64,000 nt of DNA, taken from positions 62,001 to 126,000 of the forward strand of contig JAUIIU010000001.1 in NCBI GenBank assembly GCA_030431695.1. Reading direction: 5' to 3'. This stretch comes from Bacteroidia bacterium. Its GTDB lineage: Bacteria; Bacteroidota; Bacteroidia; Flavobacteriales; Flavobacteriaceae. The number at the start of each line of letters is the position of its first letter. Positions within the stretch are counted from its first letter, which is position 1. The notes below the pieces were generated by a model. That model saw nothing but the letters and a program-made list of their open reading frames with translations. It ran no database searches and had not been told where the DNA came from. The translations under genes and the position numbers were made by a program. Shown here piece after piece: positions 741-3,995 of the stretch.

Positions 741-3476
741 ATGCAAAGCTTTCTGGAGGAAACAATACAAGACCTGTTAGATAAACACGAGGATGTTTCC
801 GAGTTAACCGTAATCCTTCCCTCCAAACGAGCAGGCGGCTTTTTCAAACATTACCTTCGGAAACAACTAAGGAAAACAAGCTTTCTACCTCGCGTTCTTA
901 GTATTGAAGAGTTCGTAGAGCTCATATCAGACCTCAGTATCATAGACCCTTCAGAATTACTTCTCAGAAGCTATAAGGCATACCTGGGCACGAAAAGCAT
1001 CGAGAAAAAGGAAGACTTTGAATCCTTTAATTCCTGGATTCAAATACTACTGAACGACTTTAATGAGATAGACAGATACCTAGTCGACAGCGATCAATTC
1101 TTCAGCTACCTCGGCAGTATCAAATCGATCGAAAAATGGTCCCCGCAAAGCGAATCAACCGATCTGATCAAATCTTACCTTTCTTTCTGGAATAGCCTGC
1201 CCGAGTTTTACGACATACTTCGAACAGACCTGGAATCGGATGGCCTTGGATACCAGGGAATGGTCTATAGAAAGGCCGCCGAAGAGATCGAACACTACCT
1301 GGGATCCAAAGGCGGACAACCTCATGTGTTTATCGGGTTCAATGCTCTAAACCTAGCCGAGCAAACCGTGATCAAAGAATTGCTGGAACTGGGAAACACA
1401 TCGATCTACTGGGACGCCGAAGCTCACTTCTTTTCAGGACGGCCGCACAGCGCATCTCAATTTATGAAAAGCTATTTCGATACCTGGAATTATTATCAAA
1501 CCAACCGTCCTGAATTAGGGAATAACTATACCAAAAACAAGAAATTTTACTTCGTCGAAACCCAGAAGAATATTGCCCAGGCGAAATACGCGGGTCAGAT
1601 CCTGGGATCAATGTCCAGGGAGGAACTGAATGAAACCGCTGTCATCCTCTGCGACGAGAACCTGCTTACACCACTGTTGTATTCACTTCCCGCAAATCTT
1701 GAGAAGGTGAATGTGACCATGGGGTCGAGTATAGAGAATTCGCCCATAACCGTCTTTATACTTTCCCTATTACGGATTCAGAAGTCGGGACGGAGCAAGT
1801 GGTATTTCAAAGATATATTCAATCTCCTGAATAATCCTGCCGGCCAACGCCTGGTCCCTAATGCGAAGAATCTGGTTCGTTTGATTTCAGAAGAGAACCA
1901 GACTTATCTTTCAGTATCAGAATTGGTCGAATTGGATAGTAATTCAGAGAGTGAGAACCTTAAAATTATCTTCGGCAGCTGGAACAACGAGCCGCTCTCG
2001 GCGATAAATAATTCCATGGAATTATTAGTTAGACTAAAACCTTTGCTGTGGTCCAGCCAGTTGGAATTAGCGATTGCTTACGAGTTATATACGATCCTAT
2101 CAGAAATAAAAGGGCAAATAAACAATTTTCCATACCTGGAGTCTATCAACTCTGTTTATACCTTATTCCAGGAATCGGTTCGAAGCCTTACCACCGACTT
2201 GGCCGGAGATGCATACGAAGGCCTCCAGGTTATGGGAGTATTGGAAACAAGAGTATTGGACTTTAAAAATCTGATCGTGCTTTCCGTAAACGAAGGAATC
2301 CTTCCTGCCGGGAAAACCAATGCCTCATTCATTACCTACGACTTGAAGAAGACCTTTAACCTGCCCCTTTTTACAGATAAGGATGCAGTTTATGCCTACC
2401 ATTTCTATCATCTGATTCACAGGGCCGAACAAGTACATTTTATCTATAACGCCACTTCCGAAGGGCTCAACGCAGGTGAAAAAAGCAGGTTCCTGATGCA
2501 AATCGAAACAGACAGGCTTTCGGCACATCTTATCGATTATCAAGTTGTTTCGCTTCCGATTTTGCTGAATGAAACACCCCTTCAGCAAATACCTAAGACT
2601 AAAACCGTAATGGATCGGCTACAGGCAATTGCCCAATCCGGGTTCTCTCCTTCTGCCCTTACATCTTACATTCGAAATCCTTTCGATTTCTATCTCTCAC
2701 GTGTCTTGAAAATTAATGAATTCGAAACAGTCGAGGAGACTGTGGATTACAACACACTTGGCTCCATAGTTCACAACAGTCTTGAAAAACTATACGAGCC
2801 TTTTGTTGGCAGTTATTTAGAGCCGAAAGGCTTGAAGACAGCCATGGACTGCGTAGATGAGACAGTACGCAAACAATTCACCAACACTTATAAAAGCGGT
2901 GATTATTCTACTGGCAAGAATCTCCTGATCTTTGAAGTGGCCAAAAGGTATGTTGAAAATCTGATCAAGCTTGATTTGGAAGAATTGGAATCGGGGCATC
3001 GTATTCGAATTCTTCATATTGAAAAGAAAATGCAGCTGGCGCTGCAGATAGACGAAATTCCATTCCCCGTTTATGTCCAGGGGATGGTAGACCGGGTGGA
3101 TGAGAGGGATGGCGTGATCAGGATCATCGATTACAAAACAGGATTGGTGAATCAAAATGAATTGCAAATAACAGATTGGGATCTATTGACAACAGACTAT
3201 AAGTACAGTAAGGCCTTCCAGGTCCTTATGTATGCATACATTATTCATGCAGAAGAGCACTTCGACACCTCGGTTGCCGGTGTGATATCCTTCAAGAACT
3301 TCAATAGCGGTTTTATGCAATTTGTATCAAAGACAGATTCGGGGAGTGCTAAAAATCATGAAATTTTCAATAATACTTTGAAGCAATTCGAAACTGGCAT
3401 GAAGAGCCTAATCAAAGAAATTTGTGATCCGGCATTACCTTTTATTGAAAAGCAAGTGAAATTTCCGAAAAATTAG
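741..3476 (+). CDS. AddB/RecB-like PD-(D/E)XK nuclease family protein
   Basis: A 911-residue protein. The N-terminal part (ILPSKRAGGFF near residue 25) resembles the inactivated helicase fold of AddB/RexB proteins. The C-terminal part carries a RecB-type nuclease: GSIVHNSLE near residue 675 supplies the conserved histidine, and GMVDRVD followed by IIDYKTG at about residues 778-800 supplies the acidic and lysine active-site residues. Such proteins act with an AddA helicase-nuclease in double-strand break processing. The addA partner is not adjacent here; in Bacteroidota it may be elsewhere. The ATG lies 15 bases after the OmpA terminator, and tRNA-Ala follows. The family assignment is firm; the name AddB is an inference from architecture. 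Confidence 0.82.
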   Translation: MQSFLEETIQDLLDKHEDVSELTVILPSKRAGGFFKHYLRKQLRKTSFLPRVLSIEEFVELISDLSIIDPSELLLRSYKAYLGTKSIEKKEDFESFNSWIQILLNDFNEIDRYLVDSDQFFSYLGSIKSIEKWSPQSESTDLIKSYLSFWNSLPEFYDILRTDLESDGLGYQGMVYRKAAEEIEHYLGSKGGQPHVFIGFNALNLAEQTVIKELLELGNTSIYWDAEAHFFSGRPHSASQFMKSYFDTWNYYQTNRPELGNNYTKNKKFYFVETQKNIAQAKYAGQILGSMSREELNETAVILCDENLLTPLLYSLPANLEKVNVTMGSSIENSPITVFILSLLRIQKSGRSKWYFKDIFNLLNNPAGQRLVPNAKNLVRLISEENQTYLSVSELVELDSNSESENLKIIFGSWNNEPLSAINNSMELLVRLKPLLWSSQLELAIAYELYTILSEIKGQINNFPYLESINSVYTLFQESVRSLTTDLAGDAYEGLQVMGVLETRVLDFKNLIVLSVNEGILPAGKTNASFITYDLKKTFNLPLFTDKDAVYAYHFYHLIHRAEQVHFIYNATSEGLNAGEKSRFLMQIETDRLSAHLIDYQVVSLPILLNETPLQQIPKTKTVMDRLQAIAQSGFSPSALTSYIRNPFDFYLSRVLKINEFETVEETVDYNTLGSIVHNSLEKLYEPFVGSYLEPKGLKTAMDCVDETVRKQFTNTYKSGDYSTGKNLLIFEVAKRYVENLIKLDLEELESGHRIRILHIEKKMQLALQIDEIPFPVYVQGMVDRVDERDGVIRIIDYKTGLVNQNELQITDWDLLTTDYKYSKAFQVLMYAYIIHAEEHFDTSVAGVISFKNFNSGFMQFVSKTDSGSAKNHEIFNNTLKQFETGMKSLIKEICDPALPFIEKQVKFPKN

Positions 3477-3492
3477 TATTTTCGCATCCCAC

Positions 3493-3566
3493 GGGGCATT
3501 AGCTCAGCTGGCTAGAGCGTTTGGCTGGCAGCCAAAAGGTCATCGGTTCGACTCCGATATGCTCCA
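3493..3566 (+). tRNA. tRNA-Ala(GGC)
   Basis: A full cloverleaf can be folded. The acceptor stem GGGGCAT pairs with ATGCTCC, including the G3-U70 wobble that marks alanine tRNAs. The D-arm is GCTC/GAGC, the anticodon stem TTTGG/CCAAA with loop CTGGCAG (anticodon GGC), and the T-arm ATCGG-TTCGACT-CCGAT; the discriminator is A. CCA is not encoded. A near-consensus -7 element (TATTTTCG, 3477-3484) lies 8 bases upstream, overlapping the stop of the nuclease gene. Confidence 0.95.
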
Positions 3567-3572
3567 CAAGAG

Positions 3573-3599
3573 AAAGCAAGGTGAAAGCCTTGCTTTTTT
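3573..3599 (+). terminator. Terminator after tRNA-Ala
   Basis: Stem AAAGCAAGG (3573-3581) with CCTTGCTTT (3588-3596), loop TGAAAG, followed by T residues. Confidence 0.85.
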
Positions 3600-3610
3600 G
3601 CATGCAAAAA

Positions 3611-3658
3611 TATCGGAGGAGAAGTTTATCCTGAGCGTCAGTCGAAGGGACTCCGATA
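3611..3658 (+). repeat. REP-like hairpin between tRNA 3'-end copies 1 and 2
   Basis: TATCGGAG (3611-3618) and CTCCGATA (3651-3658) form a perfect 8-bp inverted repeat. The loop contains CCTGAGCGTCAGTCGAAGG, close to a short palindromic element that I recall as common in intergenic regions of flavobacterial genomes. The second arm is part of tRNA-end copy 2. Confidence 0.55.
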
Positions 3659-3675
3659 TGCTCCACATCAAGCAG

Positions 3676-3705
3676 AAAACCAGGATGAAAGTCCTGGTTT
3701 TTTTA
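3676..3705 (+). terminator. Hairpin-T-run after tRNA-end copy 2
   Basis: AAAACCAGGA (3676-3685) pairs with TCCTGGTTTT (3692-3701), loop TGAAAG, then T residues. The structure is terminator-like although no complete gene lies directly in front of it. Confidence 0.75.
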
Positions 3706-3844
3706 TTTCTGAAGAATCACAAGCTTGCTTGTGAATTCGAAGGAAAAAAAGAATTAGATATTGGAACAAGATCTGGTTTTCTATTTGCAGTAGCGGAACT
3801 CTGAGGACGGATGAAATCACTCCGATATGCTCCACATCAAGGAG

Positions 3845-3872
3845 AAAACCAGGACCAAGGTCCTGGTTTTTT
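3845..3872 (+). terminator. Hairpin-T-run after tRNA-end copy 3
   Basis: AAAACCAGGA (3845-3854) pairs with TCCTGGTTTT (3861-3870); the loop CCAAGG can close further. It repeats the stem of copy 2. Confidence 0.75.
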
Positions 3873-3911
3873 AGTTTCTGAAAGAAGCTTATATTTTATT
3901 ATCTTAGCAGT

Positions 3912-3995
3912 ATGGGAGTAGGAGCACTCGTAATAGGAACGGTACTGTTGTGCCTGTTATTCGGACTGATCGCAGAGATCCAGGAAAGGATCTAA
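3912..3995 (+). CDS. Putative 27-residue single-span membrane peptide
   Basis: A short frame encoding MGVGALVIGTVLLCLLFGL followed by an acidic-basic tail IAEIQERI: one strongly hydrophobic span and a charged end. I do not recognise it. Two points favour a real gene: the sequence TATCTTAG (3900-3907), one mismatch from the TAnnTTTG -7 element, lies exactly 4 nt before the ATG, the same geometry as rbfA, rnpA and lpxH in this window; and an intrinsic terminator follows at 4022-4039. Against it: the size and the lack of any family recognition. Function unknown. Confidence 0.42.
   Translation: MGVGALVIGTVLLCLLFGLIAEIQERI

Follow-up and report, generated by a model that had tools for sequence, protein, structure and literature searches.

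Why does the 3' end of a single tRNA gene occur three times in a row in a genome of the Flavobacteriaceae, and what are the short stretches of DNA between the copies? The window, i.e., the whole stretch of 64,000 nt that was analysed (assembly GCA_030431695.1, contig JAUIIU010000001.1, positions 62,001 to 126,000), belongs to the genome designated G000, and a first-pass annotation had described in it three tRNA-Ala 3' ends, each followed by a stem-loop and a T-run. The three ends are real, since ARAGORN places tRNA-Ala(GGC) at 3493-3567 and the repeats lie at 3650-3666 and 3819-3835, and these three copies delimit two short units. The features of the array are the following.

3493..3567, + strand: intact tRNA-Ala (GGC), host gene of the array (ARAGORN; Rfam RF00005)
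3550-3567, + strand: copy 1 of the tRNA-Ala 3' end, within the intact gene
3574..3599, + strand: terminator-like hairpin 3' of the intact tRNA, AAGCAAGG-TGAAAG-CCTTGCTT, with T-run (by eye; a similar one at the same position in G005)
3610..3659, + strand: REP-type right end of unit 1, with 9 flush Watson-Crick pairs between its arms
3610-3618, + strand: left arm of unit 1, ATATCGGAG
3619-3650, + strand: REP-like module of unit 1
3651-3659, + strand: right arm of unit 1, CTCCGATAT, inside the copied tRNA end
3650..3666, + strand: copy 2 of the tRNA-Ala 3' end (repeat comparison and 17-mer search)
3667..3819, + strand: body of the X-type unit, 153 bp (sequence, consensus fold, covariation)
3669-3681, + strand: X-type left arm, CAAG-C-AGAAAACC
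3674..3703, + strand: X-type terminator-like hairpin, with a T-run behind and within its 3' arm (terminator consensus scan)
about 3705-3746, + strand: X-type hairpin 2
about 3756-3774, + strand: X-type hairpin 3
3775-3787, + strand: X-type right arm, GGTTTTCT-A-TTTG
3805..3823, + strand: right-end hairpin, GGA-CG-(GAT GAA ATC)-A-CTCC, the final four bases being the T-stem strand of the copied tRNA end
3819..3835, + strand: copy 3 of the tRNA-Ala 3' end (repeat comparison and 17-mer search)
3845..3872, + strand: terminator-like hairpin 3' of copy 3, a near copy of that of the X-type unit (inverted and direct repeat)

The copies are identical over 17 nt, and the 19-nt family to which they belong showed identities of 100%, 100% and 95%. 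The 17-mer, with up to three mismatches, had three matches in the window, and because three copies occurred in none of 100 dinucleotide shuffles, the three tRNA-Ala 3' ends are not a product of chance. The whole genome contains three exact copies, no exact fourth one, and one copy with two mismatches on another contig. Each of the two units is composed of a terminator, hairpins and a further tRNA 3' end. The unit between copies 1 and 2 is 99 bp long and ends in a REP-like module, GAGAAGTTTATCCTGAGCGTCAGTCGAAGGGA, flanked by the mutually pairing sequences ATATCGGAG and CTCCGATAT; the right flank belongs to the copied tRNA end, so that the pairing of the arms includes the T-stem strand of the unit's own tRNA. 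The unit between copies 2 and 3 measures 169 bp and is of another kind, here named X-type, in which the two ends of a body of about 150 nt are paired. The first-pass estimate that copies 2 and 3 share about 60 bp was close (64 nt at 91%). The stem-loop with T-run could be seen by eye after all three copies, of which the consensus scan reported the second only, and the supposedly retained TGAAAG loop is present behind copies 1 and 2 and replaced by CCAAGG behind copy 3. A promoter reading of TTTTCTATTTGCAG, as sole explanation of this motif, was rejected, because the motif is an arm of the long-range helix and does not match the flavobacterial -7 promoter consensus. Beyond the array, at 3912-3995, a 27-codon ORF (MGVG..., by eye) resembles a small ORF found at the corresponding position in G003, and it may encode a conserved small membrane protein.

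We think, with somewhat more confidence than doubt, that the array is a stack of short, tRNA-regenerating mobile units in a tRNA gene. A unit would insert into the tRNA gene at or near the T-loop and bring the tRNA's 3' part at its right end, so that the upstream tRNA would stay complete and a spare 3' end would remain on the far side, and each unit would supply a terminator directly 3' of the complete tRNA. Tandem arrays would arise via repeated insertion or via recombination between the identical ends. Two types would be stacked here, the REP-type and the X-type, the latter having a folded, non-coding body of some 150 nt with complementary ends that close it; the two may have different origins. 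These folded inserts of marine flavobacteria, mostly without genes, look like an undescribed kind of tiny mobile element, and no description of such units was found in the literature covered, a scope that most subscription papers fell outside.

The array is not confined to tRNA-Ala. All tRNA genes were surveyed for a copy of the tRNA's own last 18 nt, with up to three mismatches, within 700 bp downstream. Such a copy was found for 8 of the 34 tRNA genes of G000 (Lys, Leu-GAG, Trp, Met, Gln, Pro, Leu-TAG and Ala), compared with 2/1120 when the ends of other tRNAs were used and 0/34 in the upstream regions, which are often shorter than 700 bp. The corresponding numbers were 4/36 in G006 (cross-control 2/1258), 6/33 in G346 (2/1056) and 1/44 in G038, a member of another family (5/1880), and the upstream controls were zero across the surveyed genomes. 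The survey excluded and masked the 'tRNA-SeC' calls of ARAGORN, which in G038 are 3' copies behind tRNA-Val, and two tRNA-Val cassettes are therefore missing from the 1/44; a tRNA-Arg unit of G000 escaped the 18-nt criterion because its copied end is truncated. The eight genes of G000 do not all carry the two types, as Leu-GAG and Pro are loose cases and the tRNA-Met copy encloses a gene cassette. The tRNA-SeC reports at the 3' copies behind tRNA-Val (L157 and L167 of G038) indicate that such units can create false tRNA annotations. Repetition of a short palindrome-like sequence in the genome, a trait of REP/RAYT systems, was present for the REP-type only. Three tandem REP-like copies, 88 bp apart, were also observed on contig C62 of G000 (L125), in a 3-kb locus without a tRNA.

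The same tRNA-Ala locus was compared in related genomes, as had been proposed at the first pass, and close relatives carry X-type units at this tRNA. G005 has a REP-type and an X-type unit as in the window, so inheritance plays a part in the shared layout; G003 has two X-type bodies, and G006 has three bodies in a row, namely two complete units and one without the final tRNA copy. In G002 and G004 one body each is left with the final tRNA copy lost or damaged (the last copies are damaged in G002, G004 and G006), and the congener G001 retains the left part of an X-type unit only. Two tRNA-Ala 3' ends 148-178 bp apart were found in 10 of the 397 family genomes, in 8 genera, and at least two of these ten have REP-type units only or other layouts. 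A search with motif and core matched 7 stretches of named genomes, among them MAGs labelled Winogradskyella and Flavobacterium. Altogether, X-type units at tRNA-Ala were found in genus g1, under seven other genus labels (G032, G346, G394, G165, G302, G328, G275) and in two MAGs, and REP-type units take their place in G119, G329 and G099. Those read in other genera were 160-168 bp long, several with unrelated sequence past the last copy, and wherever measured the X-type unit is 160-173 bp long. X-type units also occur at tRNA-Arg, at tRNA-Ser (three in tandem in G006) and, divergent, at tRNA-Pro. The suggestion that a repeat spreads together with the tRNA end and its hairpin is borne out by these same kinds of unit behind several tRNAs in several genera. 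Six matches to TTTTCTATTTKCAG...CTCC (G023, G065, G077, G078, G060 and G033) were set aside as chance, because their loci have no tRNA; three of them (G065, G077, G060) were judged coding-like by eye. Longer segments flanked by tRNA-Ala ends were seen as well: another core follows at a distance of 1.4 kb in G032 and 1.8 kb in G302, the intervening DNA being different, and the shorter of these segments (L046:5474-6840) holds a 358-aa ORF without Pfam match.

A sign of possible movement comes from tRNA-Arg(ACG). In G000 and G006 the trailer TTAAGAATGAAAAGC, which is the left end of another X-type unit, lies directly 3' of this tRNA, and in G004 a similar trailer lies 169 bp further on, after an X-type unit and a second tRNA-Arg end. 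These alleles with and without the unit agree with the first-pass view that a partial tRNA copy accompanies insertion. The G004 tRNA-Arg body shares an identity of 0.57-0.63 with seven of nine tRNA-Ala bodies (0.63 with that of G000, 0.62 with that of G346 and 0.61 with that of G004 itself), as compared to 0.54-0.55 with the tRNA-Arg bodies of G006 and G000; the values for the other two tRNA-Ala bodies were 0.54 (Winogradskyella) and 0.50 (G394), and that for tRNA-Ser was 0.55. At the level of sequence, then, one locus occurs with and without a unit among congeners, and that unit resembles most of another tRNA's units more than those at the same tRNA of its relatives, which points to transfer between tRNA loci. 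With three genomes compared, a gain in G004 is the simpler reading, though precise loss in the other two by repeat recombination would give the same pattern.

The X-type body has a conserved fold. Immediately 3' of the tRNA stands CAAG-N-X', which can pair with X-A-TTTG near the right end, and among 14 units the own pairs of ends had a mean of -16.4 kcal/mol, compared with -12.3 kcal/mol for re-pairings; none of 20000 re-pairings was as good, a count that gives no exact probability because the units are related. For tRNA-Ala the set had one unit for each genus label or MAG; two further units came from tRNA-Arg and one each from tRNA-Ser and tRNA-Pro. The own right arm ranked first for 5 of the 14 left arms, with eighth as the worst rank. 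RNAalifold on 12 bodies predicted the same closing helix and a long inner hairpin, with a double change in 22 of 32 predicted pairs. Over the 29 counted pairs, from which three terminator-stem pairs were left out, 89.0% of the cells were paired, 19 pairs had double changes and covariation was 0.460 as compared to 0.212 in shuffles, and each of the five measures stood above all 500 shuffles. Slid versions of the fold reached at most 62.9% paired and a covariation of 0.195, a comparison in which the fold is favoured since it was derived from the same alignment. The alignment omitted the divergent G394, G165, G302 and G275, the tRNA-Pro body and the tRNA-Ala bodies of G002, G005 and G006, which are close to included ones. 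The recurrence across tRNAs and genera, the constant anatomy and the covarying fold are seen at the level of sequence.

A fold of this kind could also belong to an RNA that serves the host, the body being a conserved non-coding RNA or 3' trailer with a role in termination or processing, or as a tRNA fragment or regulator, and its duplication being secondary. Host function would likewise produce covariation as strong as that seen over the 29 pairs, one of which is a G-U pair conserved in 11 of the 12 bodies; a 150-nt stretch of the window's copy has a folding z of -3.76, with 0/200 shuffles as stable, and the unit holds a terminator. Nevertheless, the distribution is patchy (10/397 family genomes by strict spacing, and the left part only in the congener G001), bodies at tRNA-Arg differ within one genus, the last copies in G002, G004 and G006 are damaged, and Rfam gave no family at gathering score, the six matches all lying below gathering scores. 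We regard a host-serving RNA as unlikely, though deserving of some weight.

The right ends tie both types of unit to their tRNAs. In the right-end hairpin of the X-type, which has the consensus GGA NN (NNN GNA NNN) A N TCC, the last bases belong to the T-stem strand of the tRNA copy. In an alignment of 16 right ends of 19 nt, 95.8% of the cells were paired and 13 were double-change cells, and 0/500 shuffles reached either of these values or the covariation score; the number of double-change pairs (124/500) and the pair types (394/500) were not unusual. Ends of other length (G005 and G006 tRNA-Ala, G004 tRNA-Arg, tRNA-Ser and tRNA-Pro) and the G002 and G004 tRNA-Ala and G000 tRNA-Arg ends were omitted. 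In the REP-type, the arms beside the module pair flush over 4-9 pairs in 10 of 12 rows, which were copies preceded by GAGAAGTTTA with up to two mismatches and in which the tRNA-Ala rows of G000 and G005 are the same locus in two relatives. Among 116 cross pairs, 96 had 0 or 1 flush pair and 13 had at least four, because some tRNAs have stem sequences in common. Of the two failures, one was a chance match inside a GIY-YIG gene and the other was Leu-TAG, whose copy is damaged; the right ends of Leu-TAG (REP) and Leu-GAG were without complementarity. The flush test was designed after an unspecific test for inverted repeats beside the copies, in which 0.05 was reached in 2 of 30 rows, some G038 rows probably being neighbouring whole tRNAs. 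In the X- and REP-type copies read, Leu-TAG excepted, the tRNA part begins no more than about two bases from the conserved T-loop A, a starting point that would let many tRNAs share one mechanism; in the GIY-YIG cassettes described below it begins further upstream.

These anatomical features bear on a neutral explanation, namely tandem duplication and decay of duplicated tRNA genes through slippage and recombination. The tandem near-identical units of G006, G003 and G346 do need recombination or slippage at some stage, yet the body is not recognisably tRNA-derived, its fold is kept across genera, the REP-type arms match their particular tRNA and single units stand next to unrelated far-side sequence. 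Purely neutral duplication therefore seems to us very improbable.

Large islands classically land in tRNA genes, CIMEs are tRNA-integrated island remnants, and many integrase attachment blocks run from the T-loop to the tRNA 3' end. The array might accordingly consist of the scars of tyrosine- or serine-recombinase islands, stacked CIME-like attL-attR sites left in the tRNA 3' end after loss of the genes. The copied block has just this extent, the direct repeat of a tRNA 3' end flanking an element is present, and, as in island remnants, a partial 3' copy lies on the far side of a complete tRNA and tandem stacking is possible. Islands also land at the same tRNAs, as two loci indicate. In G000 (C51:58500-76300, L257), tRNA-Asn and a REP-type repeat of its 3' end enclose a 16-kb stretch with a large serine recombinase. 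The 16-kb G275 locus has no intact tRNA, and its X-type unit is directly preceded by an integrase gene together with the 3' half of a tRNA-Ala. The L257 island looks defence-like: besides the recombinase, which matches Pfam Resolvase and Recombinase, it has ThiF and JAB genes, a SMODS-like gene that scores below the Pfam cut-off and, by eye, type I restriction-like genes. The tRNA part next to the G275 integrase, however, begins at the anticodon loop and not at the T-loop; thus true islands use the same tRNAs yet differ in appearance from the units.

Unlike island remnants, the units follow one design at several tRNAs and have no recombinase; the X-type, at 160-173 bp wherever measured, has no room for one, and its covarying fold is unlike a product of random deletion. 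The first-pass remark that no integrase is present holds for the contig of the window, which has no PF00589 match, and within the scope of that family the three Phage_integrase matches of the genome all lie on other contigs. No full element with the same ends was found: two exact patterns did not find the unit in IMG/VR, and the unit of the window had no match among plasmids and only a 28-nt match (E 0.05) among phages, so a phage, plasmid or viral-contig origin of the units has no support. The REP pattern had five matches in viral contigs, one of them behind tRNA-Lys (L261, IMGVR_UViG_639633025), where two tRNA-Lys genes precede a REP-like module and a 3' end resembling that of tRNA-Lys. We consider island scars improbable. 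Serial integration and loss of ordinary islands, as envisaged in the first-pass annotation, does not fit the near-constant length and covarying fold of the X-type and the loci read without integrase, and the occurrence of core plus hairpin at many unrelated tRNAs, largely the pattern it had named as telling against an attachment site, argues against a classical one and leaves insertion itself unaffected; its interpretation of the array is thus partly supported. In PMC9897764, whose main text has no word beginning with flavobacter, partial tRNA genes are mainly explained as attR sites of elements of about 9 to 23 kb.

The mobile units proposed here also differ from other short elements. MITEs are short and non-coding, with terminal inverted repeats and a short target-site duplication. 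The units are likewise short and non-coding with complementary ends, but they are bordered by tRNA 3' ends in place of a short target duplication, and some 45-50 nt, including the tRNA 3' end, lie beyond the right arm. REPs and their HUH proteins (REP with RAYT/TnpA-REP) are treated in PMC6006769, which has no word beginning with tRNA, and in PMC3733652; in PMC2864250, 'palindromic' refers to CRISPR. The REP-like module of the REP-type units resembles these short extragenic palindromes (PMC6006769, PMC3733652), but its flanking arms fit the adjacent tRNA. Y1_Tnp (PF01797) was found in 0/7 genomes of the genus and in 2/13 genomes searched, and a RAYT was rejected as driver in this genus for lack of a Y1 transposase in the seven genomes.

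Movement of the units is presumably active; it would act on single strands in folded form (DNA or RNA) and would depend on a factor supplied in trans. For the X- and REP-type units, the best candidate mobiliser would be the small GIY-YIG nuclease of some tRNA-flanked cassettes. Behind tRNA-Met of G000, the cassette encodes an 84-aa GIY-YIG protein (Pfam E 3.9e-16), which had 22 matches in 15 genomes; a tRNA lies no further than about 1.5 kb from 13 of the 22 (11 of 20 distinct loci), compared with an estimated 4% or so expected from tRNA density. The gene lies between a tRNA and its 3' copy at four loci in three genomes (tRNA-Met in G000, tRNA-Arg(TCT) in G346 and tRNA-Val twice in G038), and the other tRNA-linked GIY-YIG loci had no enclosing tRNA 3' copy. 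At tRNA-Arg(TCT) of G346 there are five 355-bp units in a row, and the one read encodes a GIY-YIG protein. Like GIY-YIG homing endonuclease elements, some of the tRNA-flanked cassettes carry a small GIY-YIG protein and keep the target gene complete; unlike them, most units read are non-coding, and cleavage of the tRNA gene is putative. Neither unit of the window encodes a GIY-YIG domain, and since none of the X-type units read has a recombinase or nuclease, the link to GIY-YIG is a shared habit only. Two further arrangements were observed at tRNA-Arg genes. In the five tandem units of G346 (L203, reverse strand 1782-3575), where RF00005 gives five partial matches, each unit ends in a tRNA part and the anticodon arm looks swapped for another hairpin. 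At tRNA-Arg ACG of G006 (L154/L198), three tandem GIY-YIG genes (by eye) lie 5' of the tRNA together with palindrome-interrupted copies of its 5' half, a mirror-image case.

It is conceivable, though we hold it doubtful, that the X-type is a bacterial SINE-like element, i.e., a structured non-coding RNA that has a tRNA 3' part at its end and is moved in trans from the T-loop of one tRNA gene to that of another. This could proceed, e.g., through an RNA or single-strand intermediate, and with the host gene regenerated the insertion would cost nothing. tRNA-derived SINEs are eukaryotic short non-coding units joined to tRNA sequence. The X-type would share with them this composition and the proposed movement in trans, but the units are bacterial, their tRNA part is the 3' end only and reverse transcription is hypothetical.

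In one genome, about one tRNA gene in four (8/34) has such a unit behind it. If the mobile-unit reading is true, it would account for some of the 'partial tRNA' annotations in flavobacteria and offer short, testable substrates for study of the insertion chemistry. It would also mean a new niche for mobile DNA that is tiny, mostly gene-free and folded, and that uses the most conserved part of tRNAs while keeping the gene whole.
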